Shown here: positions 47,241 through 55,500 of the stretch, piece by piece
Position numbering within the stretch: position 1 is the first letter of the stretch
Layout: each line of letters opens with the position of its first letter
Source of the DNA: Planctomycetota bacterium
GTDB lineage: Bacteria > Planctomycetota > Phycisphaerae > Sedimentisphaerales > Anaerobacaceae
NCBI GenBank assembly: GCA_019456145.1
Contig: VRUL01000018.1
Location: 1 to 64,000 of the forward strand
Length of the DNA: 64,000 nt
Direction: 5' to 3'
Made by a program: the position numbers and the translations under genes
Notes under the pieces: generated by a model
Told to the model about the DNA's origin: nothing
What the model saw: the letters and a program-made list of their open reading frames with translations, nothing else
Databases searched by the model: none

Positions 47241-47684
47241 GCCATTCCCCGTCCTTCCATGTTAACTGTAATTCTGACTCCTTGAGAAAACATCATGGCT
47301 TATCATTCTATCACACATTGCGATGTTGTCAAGCACGGCAAACGTACGGGCGACCCCATGTGGTCGCCCCTCTCAGCATTTTTTCATATTTTCATTTTGA
47401 TTTTTAATATTATTAGCCCCCCACCCTTGTGCTGGGGGGTTTTCTTTTTATATAACCCCCACCCCTGTGCCGGGGGGAATTTTATTTGAACTTTGACAAG
47501 GTCTATGCTATTCTCTGCCCATAATGGCTTGATTGACATCCAGGAAACGATTACTTCTTCGACATAAGAGCAACAGAGCCCCAAACGTAAGTGCGGGGTT
47601 AAAAAACTTACTTAGCCCCTCAATTTATTGAGCGGGTTAATAACCTGAATACTGGCAACCGGCAACTGTTTTTACTATCAACAT
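47241..47684. other. gene-free region with several stem-loops
   Basis: No coding frame is convincing. Stem-loops occur at 47417-47439, 47595-47619 (GGGGTTA/TAGCCCC) and 47619-47632 (CTCAA-TTTA-TTGAG). The pairing GTAAGT (47587-47592) with ACTTAC (47606-47611) competes with the second stem. The region divides the minus-strand esterase trio from the plus-strand ATPase cassette and marks the start of AT-richer DNA. Confidence 0.45.
47417..47450 (+). terminator. GC stem-loop followed by a T tract
   Basis: CCCCCCA (47417-47423) pairs with TGGGGGG (47433-47439), loop of nine bases, followed by TTTTCTTTTT. Shape fits a factor-independent terminator in plus orientation, although no plus-strand gene ends here. 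Confidence 0.4.
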
Positions 47685-47839: not shown

Positions 47840-48103
47840 ATGCTAAATGAAATATTTGTAGGCGATGTTGATTTGGGTAATGGAACCGGTTTGGAACTTG
47901 TTATTTTTCCCCTCAAAGATACAGAGCTAAAGGGAATGTGGGACAAAGATACAGATTTATTTTTGCTTTGTCTAATGCAAAATAGCACTTGTTGTACATT
48001 CAGACCTTCAGGCCATTTTTCCAGATATGTAGAAAAACTTAGAATACCTGAAGGAGATGCTAAATGTTTAGCTAAATGGCTAAGCGAAGAAAGCTGGATG
48101 TAA
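47840..48103 (+). CDS. small protein of unknown function, first gene of the ATPase-S24 cassette
   Basis: 87 residues; AAGGAG stands 7 bases before the ATG. No signal peptide, no known motif. The middle is hydrophobic and cysteine-bearing (LFLLCLMQNSTCCTF), the ends acidic. It lies 29 bp upstream of the big ATPase gene with the same AT-rich composition, so it is probably its operon partner, such as an inhibitor, sensor or adaptor; this is inference from position. Confidence 0.6.
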   Translation: MLNEIFVGDVDLGNGTGLELVIFPLKDTELKGMWDKDTDLFLLCLMQNSTCCTFRPSGHFSRYVEKLRIPEGDAKCLAKWLSEESWM

Positions 48104-48132: not shown

Positions 48133-51100
48133 ATGATAAAAAGAATTAAAAGGATATCACAAGTTGGCGTATTTAGTGACGCCAATTGTGCGCCGCTTGG
48201 TTTTGATAAATCAACGATTATTTACGGCCTTAATACGTATGGTAAGTCAACTCTATGCGATATCTTTCAATCGTTGTCACAAGATAATCCCGAGTTAATT
48301 AAGAACAGAAAAACGATTCCACAAAATGCTCAGCCTCAAATAGTTGAGATATCAGTTAGCGCAGATTTAGAATCAACCGAAGAATCTATCATATTTAAAA
48401 ATGGTCGATGGCAAGCAAATACAACGAATGAGCATCTGGAAGTATTTGGGCAATCATTTATTCATGATAATGTATTTACTGGACTCAGCTTTGAGCGACC
48501 CAATAAGGTGAATTTTACAAACTTCATACTTGGGGCAGAGGGTGTCAGGCTTGCAAATACAATTGAACAACTAAAGAAGGATAGACGTGAAAAGAACAAA
48601 GAGCTTGTCAACAGCATACCTGCTTTCGTCAAGGGGAAGACGCCTAATGAAATAGAGGCTTTTATTGCTTTAGAAGTTGAAGAGCAACTAGATCAAATCA
48701 AAAATGGCATTACCTCAAAACAAGAAATACTATTTGAAGAGCGAAAGCTATTAACTAACGTTGCTGGGATTATAGAGAAAAAGGAGCCCTCAAGGATATC
48801 GTTCAATGGTTACCGAATTAAGAAATTGGTAAAATATATTAACAAGTTTTTGGAGGATAGCTTCGAATCTCTACAAAAAGATGCTCTTGAGAAAATAAAG
48901 ATGCATCTAGCGAAGAATACAAAGGATTCAACCTTAGCTAATAGTTGGCTCAAACAAGGAATTGATATTCAAAAAGATAGTAGCAATAACTGTCCTTTCT
49001 GTAGTCAAGACTTAACAACTGTTGAAGATTTAATATCAGCTTATCGTTCATACTTTAGTGATGAATATGAGAAATTCACTACTATTTGCATCGGTGGCTT
49101 ACAGAGATGTATGGAATCATTGGAAAGCATTGAGTTGAATGTATACAAATCATTACTTGTTAATCTTTCAATACTCAAGGACTATAGCAGTATGATTACT
49201 GGCGATGAGTTTGCGGGTACTCTTTTAGAATATGACAAATCGGTGAATCGATTTCAGAAATTAGAGACAAAAACAAAGGGGGGGTTCTTGGATTTGATCA
49301 AATCACTCAGATCCACCATTAAGCAGAAGACAATGGCTCCTCACATGTCAGCAACACCGCTTGACTTTAATGCGACAAATTTCAGAGCACAGCTCATACG
49401 TGAATACTACACTGAGCTACGTAGTGCCCAGAATCTGACTGCACAACTTATAAAGCAAATTTTTATCTTCAAGGAAGATCTTCGGACCGATAAAAAAACA
49501 CAATATATACAGCAACTAGAGGAAGAAATTGCTCAGTTGAAGAAGAAGGAGGCTCGGCTCGAACAGGATGGAGATTGTGAAAAATACAAGAAAATTGAGG
49601 GTGAAATAGTTGTGCTGAAAAATGAACTAACAACCACTCAAACAAAAATGGAGGATTCGCAAAGAGAGTATGTTGAGACCTATTTCGAAATGACTAATAA
49701 AATATTCGAGAAATTAGGAAGCAATGATTTTAAATTGAAGAAAGAGACAAACGACAAAGGTAATAGGAAAATATACGGTGTTTCTGTGGTATATAAAGAT
49801 ATGCCTATCCCTAAAGATAAAATATCTGTAGTTTTCAGCGAATCGGACAGAAGAGCTTTAGCACTATCTATATTCCTTGCGAAAGTACAACTTAAATCCA
49901 CGGAAGAACTTGATAAAAGCATTATAATGCTAGATGATCCGAGTACTAGTTTTGATGATAACCGTATAACAAGTATAATTCAATTGATTAGTAAGCTGTC
50001 GAAAGATACAGCCCAAATGATAATTCTTACTCATTATCCTAATTTTATCAAAAGATACTATGAGTTGAGAAACTCGGCTAAGCTTTTCAAGATAAAAAAA
50101 TTCGAACATACATGCTTGATTGACGAGATGGACAAGGAACAACTTTGCCAGAATGTCCACGAAAAGCGTTGTGACAAAATCATACAATTTATTAATCGTC
50201 AAACACAAGACGATCCAAGAATGAAAATCCGAGTATTCTTTGAAAACCATATCAGAATAATGTTTCGAAAGCAAATCTTGGAATTAGATTTGGTCGCTGA
50301 ACAACTAAGACCAGTACTTATAGGCCTTAAAGATAATCAGGTTATTAGTGCGTCAACATTTGCTGAATTGGACAAATATCGGAAAGCTCTGAATCCTGAA
50401 CATCACCCGCAGTATAACACTGTCAATTCAGAAGATGTTCGTCAGCAGGCTACTGAGATAATGGAATTTCTATTCAATATTGATTTTGATAAAAAGGCCT
50501 TTAGGGTTGAGTTAAGGGATTTGAAAAAGCTTAGAGCAAAAGAATTGAGAGGCAATGTCATTAAAGATAGTATAGGCAAAGCTAACGCTGCGTTAAACAT
50601 AATATTTAACGATGGCATCAGTATATCCATGATTGGGCGAGCCGCAGCAAGGCCTGAATCATGGGTTATTGATGAGTCCGTACAAGAAGCCAATGTCGTT
50701 ATACGGAAGTTTGCTTGTGTTCATGTGACCGGCAATACCTTTGACCCAATCGCGAGATGCGGGCAGTGTATTTTATTGTCAGATTCAGATGATATGCCGG
50801 CCGATGGTGATTTGGTTGTTGGGGAATCCAGGGAGCAGGAAAAGTACCTTAGGCGGATTTCATTTAATGATGACAGTGCTTTTCTTTACTCGATTAATCC
50901 CCTTAAGATAACGGCTCCTTTGCAAGTTGACAGAAAAACACTTTCACTGCACAGAGTTGTAGGTGTTCTTTATGACCCATGCAGACACTGTGATATGGAA
51001 ATTATAAATGGTAATGAGTGGCATCCATGCAAAAATATTGATCCTTCTTATTTTGAAAATAAGAAAATAATTGCTGTTGAAGGAGACAGCATAGAACCCA

Positions 51101-51369
51101 TAGCCCGTAAAGGCCAAAAGGTTCTTGTAGAGGTAGGCATGGCTCCCAAATGCTGTAAGATTGAGTCGGGTGGATTAGCTGTAATTGAGACTGAAGAAGG
51201 ATCTGTTGGTAACGAAATAAAAAGGGTCTATCCTAAGAAAGATAACTGGATACTTTTTAGTGCAAACCCGCTTGAGCCATATACTCCGGACATTATTCCA
51301 ATCGAAAAAATTAAAAAGGTTTGGCCTCTGAAAGGTGTGATATTCGAAGTTGCTGAAAACCAATTTTGA
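48133..51369 (+). CDS. RloC/PrrC-like (AAA_13) ATPase with two C-terminal LexA/S24-peptidase-like domains
   Basis: 1078 residues. Walker A GLNTYGKST is at 32-40; an extended coiled-coil middle holds the zinc-hook-like CPFC (Cys287, Cys290) and a second coil (450-515). The signature-like region is near 568-583, Walker B IIMLDDP at 597-603, and the switch His of LTHYP at 634. R750-x6-H757 (RKALNPEH) resembles a HEPN ribonuclease motif. Residues 861-948 and 980-1070 are two LexA/S24-like units. The second keeps the Ser986/Lys1030 dyad (EGDSIEP, EIKRV); the first has Thr869 and Arg907 instead. Cys950, Cys953 and Cys966 lie between them. AAA_13 relatives RloC and PrrC are tRNA-cleaving phage-defence enzymes. 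The S24 fusion suggests that damage or stress releases the ATPase by self-cleavage. The combination is one I do not recall being described. Confidence 0.8.
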   Translation: MIKRIKRISQVGVFSDANCAPLGFDKSTIIYGLNTYGKSTLCDIFQSLSQDNPELIKNRKTIPQNAQPQIVEISVSADLESTEESIIFKNGRWQANTTNEHLEVFGQSFIHDNVFTGLSFERPNKVNFTNFILGAEGVRLANTIEQLKKDRREKNKELVNSIPAFVKGKTPNEIEAFIALEVEEQLDQIKNGITSKQEILFEERKLLTNVAGIIEKKEPSRISFNGYRIKKLVKYINKFLEDSFESLQKDALEKIKMHLAKNTKDSTLANSWLKQGIDIQKDSSNNCPFCSQDLTTVEDLISAYRSYFSDEYEKFTTICIGGLQRCMESLESIELNVYKSLLVNLSILKDYSSMITGDEFAGTLLEYDKSVNRFQKLETKTKGGFLDLIKSLRSTIKQKTMAPHMSATPLDFNATNFRAQLIREYYTELRSAQNLTAQLIKQIFIFKEDLRTDKKTQYIQQLEEEIAQLKKKEARLEQDGDCEKYKKIEGEIVVLKNELTTTQTKMEDSQREYVETYFEMTNKIFEKLGSNDFKLKKETNDKGNRKIYGVSVVYKDMPIPKDKISVVFSESDRRALALSIFLAKVQLKSTEELDKSIIMLDDPSTSFDDNRITSIIQLISKLSKDTAQMIILTHYPNFIKRYYELRNSAKLFKIKKFEHTCLIDEMDKEQLCQNVHEKRCDKIIQFINRQTQDDPRMKIRVFFENHIRIMFRKQILELDLVAEQLRPVLIGLKDNQVISASTFAELDKYRKALNPEHHPQYNTVNSEDVRQQATEIMEFLFNIDFDKKAFRVELRDLKKLRAKELRGNVIKDSIGKANAALNIIFNDGISISMIGRAAARPESWVIDESVQEANVVIRKFACVHVTGNTFDPIARCGQCILLSDSDDMPADGDLVVGESREQEKYLRRISFNDDSAFLYSINPLKITAPLQVDRKTLSLHRVVGVLYDPCRHCDMEIINGNEWHPCKNIDPSYFENKKIIAVEGDSIEPIARKGQKVLVEVGMAPKCCKIESGGLAVIETEEGSVGNEIKRVYPKKDNWILFSANPLEPYTPDIIPIEKIKKVWPLKGVIFEVAENQF

Positions 51370-51540
51370 TTACTGCGGGTGATAATTAAAGGTGTCCGGC
51401 CATAGTTCTTTCAACTCACGACTATCCAACTCCGCACTTGCCGCCAATAACAAAATCCGTGAAATCTGCGGTAAAACTTTTTTCGAGTATCTAGCATCCA
51501 GCATCGAGCAAATTATTTTCTTAAAAATGTTAGATTTTTA

Positions 51541-51569: not shown

Positions 51570-52328
51570 ACAAACAGTAATATAGAATTGAGAATTTAGA
51601 ATGTAAAACCGAGCAATAAGAAGTCTGTAGTCTTGAATCTTGAGTATATAGTCTAAGATTCTGCGGAGAACCGCAAGTCGTAGTATCAGCAGATACACGA
51701 ATCCCAGCATGCAGTAGCTTGCCCCAGCAGGTTTTAGGCAGGGGGCAGGGAGCCATTTTGTAAATTAATCGTCAGTGAATACTCAATAATCAATAGAAAA
51801 TCGTAAACTTGTGCCTTAGGTACTTGTGCCTGTGAAAGTGGGTATAATAAATCAAAAAGGTGTATTAATGACTAATAAAACACTTTTTTTGTCATTTTTT
51901 GCTCTCTTTTGTACATTTTATGCATCTTTACGACTAACAAGAACCGTTTTTACCCGGCCAAAAACCTCTATAATCTCTGTTAATCCTGTTATCTTGTCTA
52001 ATTTTTCTTCGTGTTCTTCGTGTCCTTTGTGGCTAAACAATCCGCCTGCCCCTGCAATTCTTAGGCAGGGGTCAAATCAGCGTAATCCGCGATTAATGAA
52101 CTATTTACCTGCTTATAAGGCACCCTTTTCCCCTCCTTACTCCTTACTTCTTACTCCTTACTCCTTATTTTTACGTGCCTTCGGCCCCTTTACATCTGTA
52201 GAGAAGCCTTTACAAATCAGCTCTCTTAATTATGCAAAACGAACCCAATTTCCGAAAAAGTCAAATGAACGTAAATAATGTATTAACAAAGGATTATGTA
52301 CAAATAGACACTTGGTCAAGTGGGAAAA

Positions 52329-52412
52329 ACGAACCCAAAACGAACCCAAACGAACCCAAAACAAAGCCAATTAAAGCCAATAAAATGCCAAAACAAACCC
52401 AATACGAACCCA
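52329..52412. repeat. short direct repeats, CGAACCCAA unit
   Basis: CGAACCC occurs at 52330-52336, 52341-52347 and 52351-52357, again near 52243 and 52407, with degenerate copies (AAAGCCAAT) between. Translated in one frame it gives NEPKTNPNEPKTKPIKAN. Spacing is too short and irregular for a CRISPR array. Confidence 0.6.
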
Positions 52413-52553
52413 ACTTGTCGCGGCGTAGCCTCTGGCGTAGCCGGAAACAAACCCAATCTTTTATCTTTAATCCAATAAAAATGACCTGCTCTCCGAAAAG
52501 TCGTGCCGGTTTTGGAGAGCAGGCCAAAATGAGTTCCATATTTAAAAAAGAGT

Positions 52554-55500
52554 TCAGCCGATCTTGGCCCCCCGGCCAATCAGGATCTTTCGGAGCTTTT
52601 CAAGAGTCAGCAAAGATAAATCTGAGCTCAATCCCTCGCCCACCAATATCTCATCACAGGTGGCCGGCGTGGGATTTTGCGATAGTTTATCAAGGTAAGC
52701 AGCGCTTTTACCCTTCTTTGCCGTTGCTGCTACAGCCTCTGCCAGAGCTAATTGCCGGATCACAGGGTGTGGATCTTCAAGCGCCTCGATGGCGGTATCC
52801 AACACCTTCTCTTTTTTCAGACTCGCCAGCCGGGCAAGAATCGCCCTTCGGACTTTCCAGTCACGGTCTTTTCTCAAAAGAGAAATCAAATATTGGACAT
52901 CCTTATTATTACCCCGGTCAAACAGCGCTTCTGCAAGAACAACCCTCAGTACAGCGTGGGACCGGCCGGCGACTTTCTTATCTTTCAATAGTCTCCGCGC
53001 AGCAGCATAGAAATCGTCTCCCGGCTCATAGCCCCGCAGATGCTGCACTACCGTGGCCAGCAACTCCGGCCTATCAAGAAATGATTCTTTACTCAGGACA
53101 TTTTGGTAAAGGTAGGAAGCCGCCTTTTTATAGCCGGCCAGGACCCAAACTGCCAGCGTCTGAACATCCTTATCACCATCGGAAGCGAGCTTATGAATAC
53201 CAGAATACGCATCTTCTCCATTGTATCCGGCAAGCGCCTTGAGAGCTATCAGGCTGATTGCCTTTTTGAGGTTAAGCTTCTCTTTGCCCACAGATACTGG
53301 ATAATCCTTATCCAGCGCCTGGATGAAGATTTTCTGGACTTTTATTTTCACCGTCGGCTCAGCTTCAGCTAATCGGGCAAGGCCCAAGCCTGCCTCTAAA
53401 ACGGCAAAATACTGCTGATTGAAATCGGCCTTGAGCAGGATATTTGAGAGAGCAGGAATAAGGCTGTTCATCTTTCGTGCCTTTGTCCCTGCCTTTATAG
53501 CTAAAGCAGCAACCTTCTGGTCTTTATCTGTTACAAGGGCCGCAATCAGGCGCTCGGCTTCTTTTCCCAGCTTCTTATCCGCCAGGGCATGGGCGGTCAG
53601 CATTCGAACAGTAGCGTCTTTATCTTTAGCCGTTTGCCTTAGAATATCCAGAGGAACCGGTTGTTTAAGAGTATAGACAGCTACCAGCGCCTGAGAACGG
53701 ATGTGTTCGTTCTCGCCCTCGGTGGCCAACTTTATCGCCTTTGTGATATGTACTTCATCAATCTTTACCTTTTGCTGAGTAAGAGTGGTAAGGAAGTTTA
53801 ATCCCACCGCCACCTCAGCTCCATTCTTGCTGCTCAACAATTTCTTCAGAATCCCGTTTGCCTTTGCTTCATCTATTTTCTGTCCATAGTAGACTTGGCT
53901 AAGGGTGCTATACAGATCTTTATCCCTTACAGACAAGCCTTTATGGCCTTGCTGTAGATATTCGCTTTCTTCTTTATCTGCATAAAGCAAGAGGCCAAGT
54001 CCTTCTCTCTTTTGCTGCAAGGGCGAATCATACCACGCTCGATAACCTCCGGAAAAGCGTGAAGTTGAAAGTGCCCTTGATGATCTCGCCGCTTCCGAGC
54101 TTTTCACAGGTGCTAAAGCCGGTTGGAACGTTGAGACTCCAAAACTACGGCTGCCACGGGCATTCAGCCGTGAGCCTAAAGACATCGGTTGACGGCGGAG
54201 TGCAAGGCCATCTTTGGCCTCGCCTAACATTAATCCAGCTCCATTTACATAATCTCCCGGATAGCCGCCTGGAGGTCCAAACACACCGGTGAAGCTTACT
54301 CCTTCTGGCATCGGTACGGGAATGGCAATGGTCCTGGGAAGTGTGGTATCGCTTCCTTCGGGAATAACTTCATCAACAGCAACAAAAGATGTGTACTGGG
54401 ACATAAGATTATACTCAAGGGCAAGATTAGTAACATCTTCCTCTATGCTCTTCATCCTGCCGCCAAGTTGCTCCAGCATCAGGTATTTTATCTTTTCTCT
54501 GGCCCATACTGAGGCCAGGGAACCGTTATCGGGATTCCAATCTGGAAGCGAAATCCATATCCTTTCTTCATAAGGCTCGCCATTAATCCTTCCTCTAAGG
54601 GAAACCGTTGCCTCTCCCACCGCATCGTAACGTGCAAAGAGAATAAGCGGCTGAGCCGAGTAAAGGTCTGGAATAGGATTTGGATAGACATCGGTAACAG
54701 CAAGACCTCCCCAGTTGATCTCGACATCGGTAAGATAAGGCTTGGAAATCCTAGAAATCATATCGGTTATTACCGGCTGTGGGTCCTGGTCCTGTCGAAT
54801 ATACTGGGATGTGCCGCGGCCAACCTGGGCCATACGCTCTAATAAAGAGCGATTCGGTGAAGAACCTACACCGAAGGAAAAGAGTCGAGTAGTGCCTACT
54901 TTTTCTTTTATCGCCGCCAGAATCTGATCGTCGTTGCCGATGAAGCCGTCTGTCATAAAAAAGACAATCCGTTGACGCTCGGGTACGCGCGGATAGTCAA
55001 GACAGGCCTTTATGCCTTCAATCATCCTGGTACCGCCACTTCCGTAGAGGGCCTGAATATAATCCAGGGCCTCTTCCTTATGAAGGCGGGTTGCAGGAAC
55101 CGGCTTGGGTGAAAATGCACTCGCATTTGAAGAGAAACGAATTATCTGGAAGGTATCATCAGGACTGATTCCCTGAATACAATGGTACATTGCCTCTTTG
55201 ACCTTCTGTATAGGATAGCCGCTCATCGAGCCGGAGCAATCCACCACGAAGAATATTTCCTTTGGTTCGAGATTCTGGGTCACGCTTTCGGTGCTCGGCT
55301 GAATCATCAACAAGAGATATCCCCCCTGTTGCGAATAATGGGTAAGATAAGCGCTGCGGGGTTTATCTTCAGCAACGCTGTATTCAAGGGTAAAGTCCTT
55401 ATTGGGAATGGTATCCTGCGCCATTATGCTCACTGTGGCTTTTCCTATGTCCTCGTCCGTTAGCTCTATATCGTGTGATTTTGAATTCAAATCCTCAATA

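Follow-up and report, generated by a model that had tools for sequence, protein, structure and literature searches.

A candidate RloC-type ATPase-nuclease with a tandem S24 tail in a planctomycete

Whether a Rad50-like ATPase may carry its own LexA-type switch is the question raised by a gene in the 64,000-nucleotide stretch of planctomycete DNA analyzed here (the window). A sequence-only reading had described this gene as an ATPase with RloC/PrrC-like architecture joined to two S24 modules, and had suggested that the ATPase is held or released by autoproteolysis. The open reading frame is complete from ATG to stop with 1078 codons on the forward strand, and all motifs of the proposed ATPase layout, i.e. 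Walker A, coiled coils, CPFC, Walker B and the switch histidine (H634), could be located in it. The gene and its head comprise the following features:

48133..51369, forward strand: whole gene, 1078 amino acids, predicted RloC-type ATPase-nuclease head plus tandem S24 tail
48133..50478, forward strand: head, residues 1-782, PDC-S06 / AAA_13 Rad50-like ATPase with a nuclease-like end
48226..48249, forward strand: Walker A GLNTYGKS, residues 32-39, from motif alignment
48991..49002, forward strand: CPFC hook motif, residues 287-290, between coiled-coil helices (invariant in the alignment, helices from the model)
49834..49869, forward strand: ABC signature FSESDRRALALS, residues 568-579, from motif alignment
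49921..49941, forward strand: Walker B IIMLDDP, residues 597-603, from motif alignment
50230..50403, forward strand: putative anticodon-nuclease triad R700-x3-E704-x52-H757, by match to the published RloC motif (PMC2610378)

The AAA_13 and Peptidase_S24 assignments both hold above the curated Pfam cut-offs, the former at residues 11-668 (E 2e-32, 113 bits versus a cut-off of 36) and the latter at residues 977-1057 (E 1.1e-7, 32 bits versus 23.3); a further Peptidase_S24 stretch appeared in the same protein only at the loose limit applied. A full-length AlphaFold2 model (mean pLDDT 65.9, 8 aligned rows) resembles Rad50, SMC and Lamassu LmuB, with 127 PDB matches at E<=0.001, and places the CX2C hook within a coiled-coil insert, with long helices on either side.

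The head is covered over residues 1-782 by the PADLOC candidate defence family PDC-S06 (model PDLC04895, positions 1-778 of 784, E 3.7e-190), and the LmuB profile gives a far weaker match (E 2.9e-18). RloC proteins are defined by three features, namely ATPase motifs like those of Rad50, a hook of the CX2C form and a C-proximal R-X3-E-X36-52-H, and their activity is abolished by alanine at any of the three R/E/H residues (PMC2610378). The window protein has all Rad50-type ABC ATPase motifs and the hook, and a nuclease-like domain with an R-E-H triad is located at about residues 690-782 between ATPase and tail. This domain had been absent from the sequence-only reading. R700, E704 and H757 are all invariant in the PDC-S06 alignment (four members), and viral PDC-S06 relatives have equivalents of the triad with X = 52-54. 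An HSR domain match at 704-782 lies under its cut-off, overlaps the nuclease-like domain and was taken as chance. Judged by published sequence markers alone, the head is of the RloC type, in line with the architecture recognized earlier, and tRNA cleavage is its putative activity.

In Planctomycetota we ran about 1,560 genome searches, in which some genomes appear more than once; the survey also took in plasmids, phage records and a single pattern-based scan across a genome collection. The other members of PDC-S06 that we examined match no further than residue 782 and have no S24 tail. None of the 40 plasmid records with PDC-S06-type matches covers 80% of the query, frames of this type in three other Planctomycetota measure 745-856 amino acids and five viral PDC-S06 ORFs 763-786 amino acids, and plain PDC-S06 genes without the tail are present on viral contigs. 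A PDC-S06 head together with this tail was met only once across the survey.

With RloC (PMC2610378, PMC3874168) the window protein shares the Rad50-like ATPase, the CX2C hook and the R-X3-E-X52-H near the end of the head, as well as the occurrence as a single, sporadic and mobile gene, whereas published descriptions of RloC proteins include no S24 tail and tRNA cleavage by the window protein is only predicted. The likeness to PDC-S06 extends over residues 1-782, but the examined members of that family stop at about this point. PrrC also combines an ABC ATPase with a C-terminal R-E-H anticodon-nuclease site; however, it has no hook and is tied to a type I restriction system, and by reading of ORFs none lies beside the window gene. 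Lamassu LmuB is an SMC-like ATPase and its structures are resembled by our model, but in the window gene the nuclease-like site and the tail are part of the same chain. In Lamassu, LmuB shares one operon with the effector LmuA (and LmuC); read from the ORFs, the one ORF adjacent to the window gene is an orphan of 87 amino acids.

The two S24 modules claimed for the C-terminus are both present according to profiles and fold, but they turned out to be unequal, the first one apparently dead and the second one intact:

50629..50982, forward strand: S24 copy 1, residues about 833-950, with AAA-R840 instead of an A-G scissile bond, T869 replacing Ser and R907 replacing Lys
50983..51360, forward strand: S24 copy 2, residues about 951-1076, catalytic S986 and K1030 intact

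Profiles of copy 1 and copy 2 (12 proteins) match each other with 98.4% probability (E 8.7e-15), and the host's own LexA is matched by both in profile comparison. The AlphaFold2 model of the tail is weak (pLDDT 56.5, S24 parts about 60-85, only 3 aligned rows), and so are its best PDB neighbours (best E 0.004, probability 1.0), which are LexA C-domains, lambda repressor, UmuD' and signal peptidase. A sequence search of solved structures using the tail profile gave no match. Fourteen tails were aligned (median pairwise identity 20%), and not one of them has lost the catalytic Ser or Lys of copy 2. The Lys of copy 1 is replaced by Arg in all 14, and its nucleophile position is occupied by Thr (7), Ser (4), Ala (2) or Asn (1). 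The conservation of Ser and Lys supports a predicted catalytic role of copy 2, and as both residues are invariant, proteolysis by this copy is plausible.

Self-cleavage of S24 proteins combines an Ala-Gly (or Cys-Gly) bond with a Ser-Lys dyad (PMC8565304, PMC3834820). Aligned with LexA and UmuD of the host, copy 1 retains the cleavage-loop sequence (GR-AA, AA-x) and copy 2 has no cleavage loop of its own. The position of the scissile Gly is taken by Arg, Lys, Leu, Phe, His, Gln, Ala or Ser (A839-R840 in the window protein), an Ala-Gly or Cys-Gly bond is found at the canonical place in none of the 14 tails, and there is no obvious alternative conserved cleavage site in them. On visual inspection, A-G is present in each of the three further S24 proteins detected in the host (LexA, UmuD and a repressor), which indicates that the comparison is able to detect the motif. 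Since the Gly is absent from all 14 tails and the copy that follows A-A-x has lost its catalytic Lys in all of them, plain LexA-style autoproteolysis at the canonical site, as proposed in the sequence-only reading, is not supported and was rejected. By its residues, the tail is a conserved tandem of a dead and a live S24 copy and not a plain self-cleaving LexA switch. It has the S24 fold, the Ser-Lys dyad in copy 2 and the GR-AA loop sequence before copy 1 in common with LexA and UmuD, but differs from them as a tandem with a dead first copy that lacks the Ala-Gly bond and a DNA-binding domain and is fused to an ATPase-nuclease.

A fusion unique to this one gene is ruled out by the same tandem tail in 13 other proteins. 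Longer-type ATPases with this tail occur in further Planctomycetota (G436, G312, G888 and G461), and longer ATPases on alphaproteobacterial and gammaproteobacterial plasmids end in it as well, with carriers from Rhizobium, Sphingomonas, Phyllobacterium (gene split), Mesorhizobium, Methylorubrum, Bradyrhizobium, Croceicoccus and Pseudomonas veronii. The pattern-based scan yielded only G312 and G013, and the proteobacterial examples come from plasmids only; neither a pattern search of IMG/VR nor tblastn against phage records found a carrier. The longer carriers tested have no close family in NCBIfam or PADLOC, and the longer S24-tailed relatives match the LmuB profiles of PADLOC weakly. In most longer heads a script detected the pattern R-x3-E ... 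N-x-x-H ahead of the tail. It was not picked up in G013, Rhizobium and G888, and in the latter two heads R-x3-E and an HH pair are visible by eye. Some carriers of the tail lie near defence-type genes. These neighbours are anecdotal individual cases: a carrier on a Methylorubrum plasmid lies near Shedu, and AbiEii and VapC genes are located near the carrier on a Bradyrhizobium plasmid. On a Pseudomonas veronii plasmid (L043:2589-8687) the S24-tailed ATPase is found behind a SLATT protein and a reverse transcriptase, and the three possibly form one defence operon.

The closest counterpart of the tail is found in G013, a relative from the same family:

50478..51398, forward strand: block common to genome G013 at 86% DNA identity, located there behind a different ATPase

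The G013 protein (1279 amino acids, L016:5200-9039) has a tail that is 80% identical at the protein level, and its head is an otherwise different Rad50-like ATPase. The DNA similarity sets in at base 50478 and ends 29 bases past the stop codon, and there is no DNA match between the window and G013 outside these limits. Such sharp limits with nothing matching outside indicate that the tail travelled as a unit between two heads of different kinds, and the best explanation is that it originated in another Rad50-like family and then joined the PDC-S06 head. A dN/dS of about 0.23 between both tails indicates purifying selection. The copy-2 half (50983-51369) has a dS of 0.17 against G013 and copy 1 a dS of 0.75; the low value hints at a second, later exchange that may have replaced the copy-2 half. 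The S24-tailed ATPase of G013 lacks the Arg of the nuclease triad, and given this loss its nuclease may be dead.

The head has a GC content of 36% and the tail one of 40%, compared with 49% in the window. Searches of the four further genomes of the genus (54-88% complete) did not recover the gene, and it is missing from nearly all relatives searched. The adjoining VIT-domain gene is conserved at 82-86% in two genomes of the genus, with different genes downstream of it there. A horizontally acquired, mobile gene would be the best explanation, and the low GC content, the sporadic occurrence and the plasmid-borne relatives of the tail agree with the earlier view of a variable gene rather than a uniform housekeeping one. 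The neighbours in the window are sugar-acetylesterase-like and VIT-domain genes, so read from their ORFs and not from profiles, and on this reading the gene lies outside any defence island. The defence role assumed at the outset is backed by the candidate defence family of the head, but not by the neighbourhood. Directly upstream we found

47840..48103, forward strand: small orphan ORF of 87 amino acids with a strong AAAGGAG ribosome site, separated from the ATPase gene by 29 bases

No relatives of this ORF were detected in 60 other genomes, the compared loci or family libraries, and for this reason it was dropped as a conserved partner; lacking a relative in the 60 genomes, it could be a fast-evolving operon partner or spurious. 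An interspersed element with coding-like frames (KPNTNPNKANTKPIKANKMPKQTQ-type text) is located at 51826-53242 on the forward strand beside the insertion. The same element occurs at L017:8961-9470 and L067:7757-8263; it is intergenic in several related genomes and also stands beside the VIT gene. The host has its own LexA and UmuD, which makes an SOS system likely. At L031:1205-2405, umuD and the beginning of a umuC-like gene come after lexA, and the palindrome ATGTCTAAATAGACAT upstream of lexA may be its LexA box. Control of the window gene by a LexA-box-like site was rejected, as this palindrome fits the window no better than expected by chance (the nearest site, at 47525, has 2 mismatches).

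Taken together, we tentatively favour a mobile, single-protein defence ATPase of the RloC tRNase type, with the S24 tail as a regulatory lock run by copy 2, and give this reading a little less than an even chance. The Rad50-like head would sense abnormal DNA such as breaks or phage DNA, and the nuclease domain would cut tRNA, stopping translation and in turn phage growth. Copy 1 would be a pseudo-peptidase in which the cleavage-loop sequence of LexA (AA-x) is preserved at the junction of nuclease and tail, and the Ser-Lys dyad of the lock would come from copy 2. In response to damage, signalled most likely by RecA bound to single-stranded DNA as with LexA and UmuD, copy 2 might cut at or close to the loop preceding copy 1 (around 837-840), either in cis or within the partner chain of a dimer. 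This cut would separate the nuclease from the tail, by which the nuclease would be freed or destabilised. We infer both the proteolytic mode of action and the trigger by DNA damage or RecA, the RecA filament from the behaviour of S24 proteins and the response of RloC to DNA breaks. In its natural host, RloC is switched on by inducers of DNA breaks even without its restriction system (PMC3874168). The missing scissile bond, the lack of a LexA-box-like site above chance and of a defence island, and the G013 head without the catalytic Arg count against the lock. A broader idea, which we regard as doubtful, is that the S24 tandem acts as a transferable proteolytic safety catch on nucleases of the RloC type and on longer Rad50-like ones. 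Such a catch would join the RecA damage signal directly to translation shut-off without transcription or LexA, with copy 2 cutting at a non-canonical site ahead of copy 1. As only one PDC-S06 head with the tail is known from the survey, the module could be genuine and the window gene may still be a unique product of recombination.

The tail might do without proteolysis. As a sensor or docking platform, an S24 pseudo-dimer would bind RecA filaments or an S24 repressor and signal by conformational change, with Ser and Lys kept for structure or ligand binding. A scissile Gly that is never present, a first copy that is dead in all tails and a second one without its own loop fit this reading, but the invariance of the copy-2 dyad in 14 of 14 tails at such low identity argues for catalysis, and we consider it rather unlikely. 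A dyad without its own cleavage loop is also reminiscent of signal-peptidase-like enzymes that cut other proteins, and signal peptidase is among the structural neighbours of the tail model. Copy 2 could accordingly act in trans on LexA, a prophage repressor or a phage protein, making the tail a second effector instead of a self-switch; however, S24 enzymes are mostly self-cleaving and no conserved neighbour gene was seen as a possible substrate, so that this appears unlikely.

The remaining explanations concern the gene as a whole. A recombination accident, in which a PDC-S06 gene captured a tail that plays no part, would account for the single head-tail pair, the sharp DNA break and the loss of the catalytic Arg in the nearest relative of the tail. 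Yet the frame is intact across 1078 codons, and the selection seen in the comparison with G013 together with the kept dyad makes an accident quite improbable. Finally, the Rad50/SMC fold, the LexA-type tail and the SbcCD genes that adjoin some plasmid carriers could point to a housekeeping DNA-repair ATPase under an SOS-type tail. Against this stand the absence from nearly all relatives, the low-GC insert, the nuclease-like triad and the plasmid-borne relatives, and we regard it as very unlikely.

In the open-access literature we found no account of S24-tailed RloC or Rad50-like nucleases, and the claim of a new layout holds to this extent; the head itself is of a known kind (PDC-S06 / RloC type), and it is the addition of the S24 tail that is a new variant. 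RloC-type anticodon nucleases fire after DNA breaks, and how they are silenced in healthy cells is not settled. A dead S24 copy ahead of a live one would, if true, be unusual and would mean that the LexA peptidase fold is reused for control outside transcription repressors. The S24 tail that moved between two Rad50-like heads is a testable candidate for the post-translational coupling of a damage signal to an abortive-infection tRNase.
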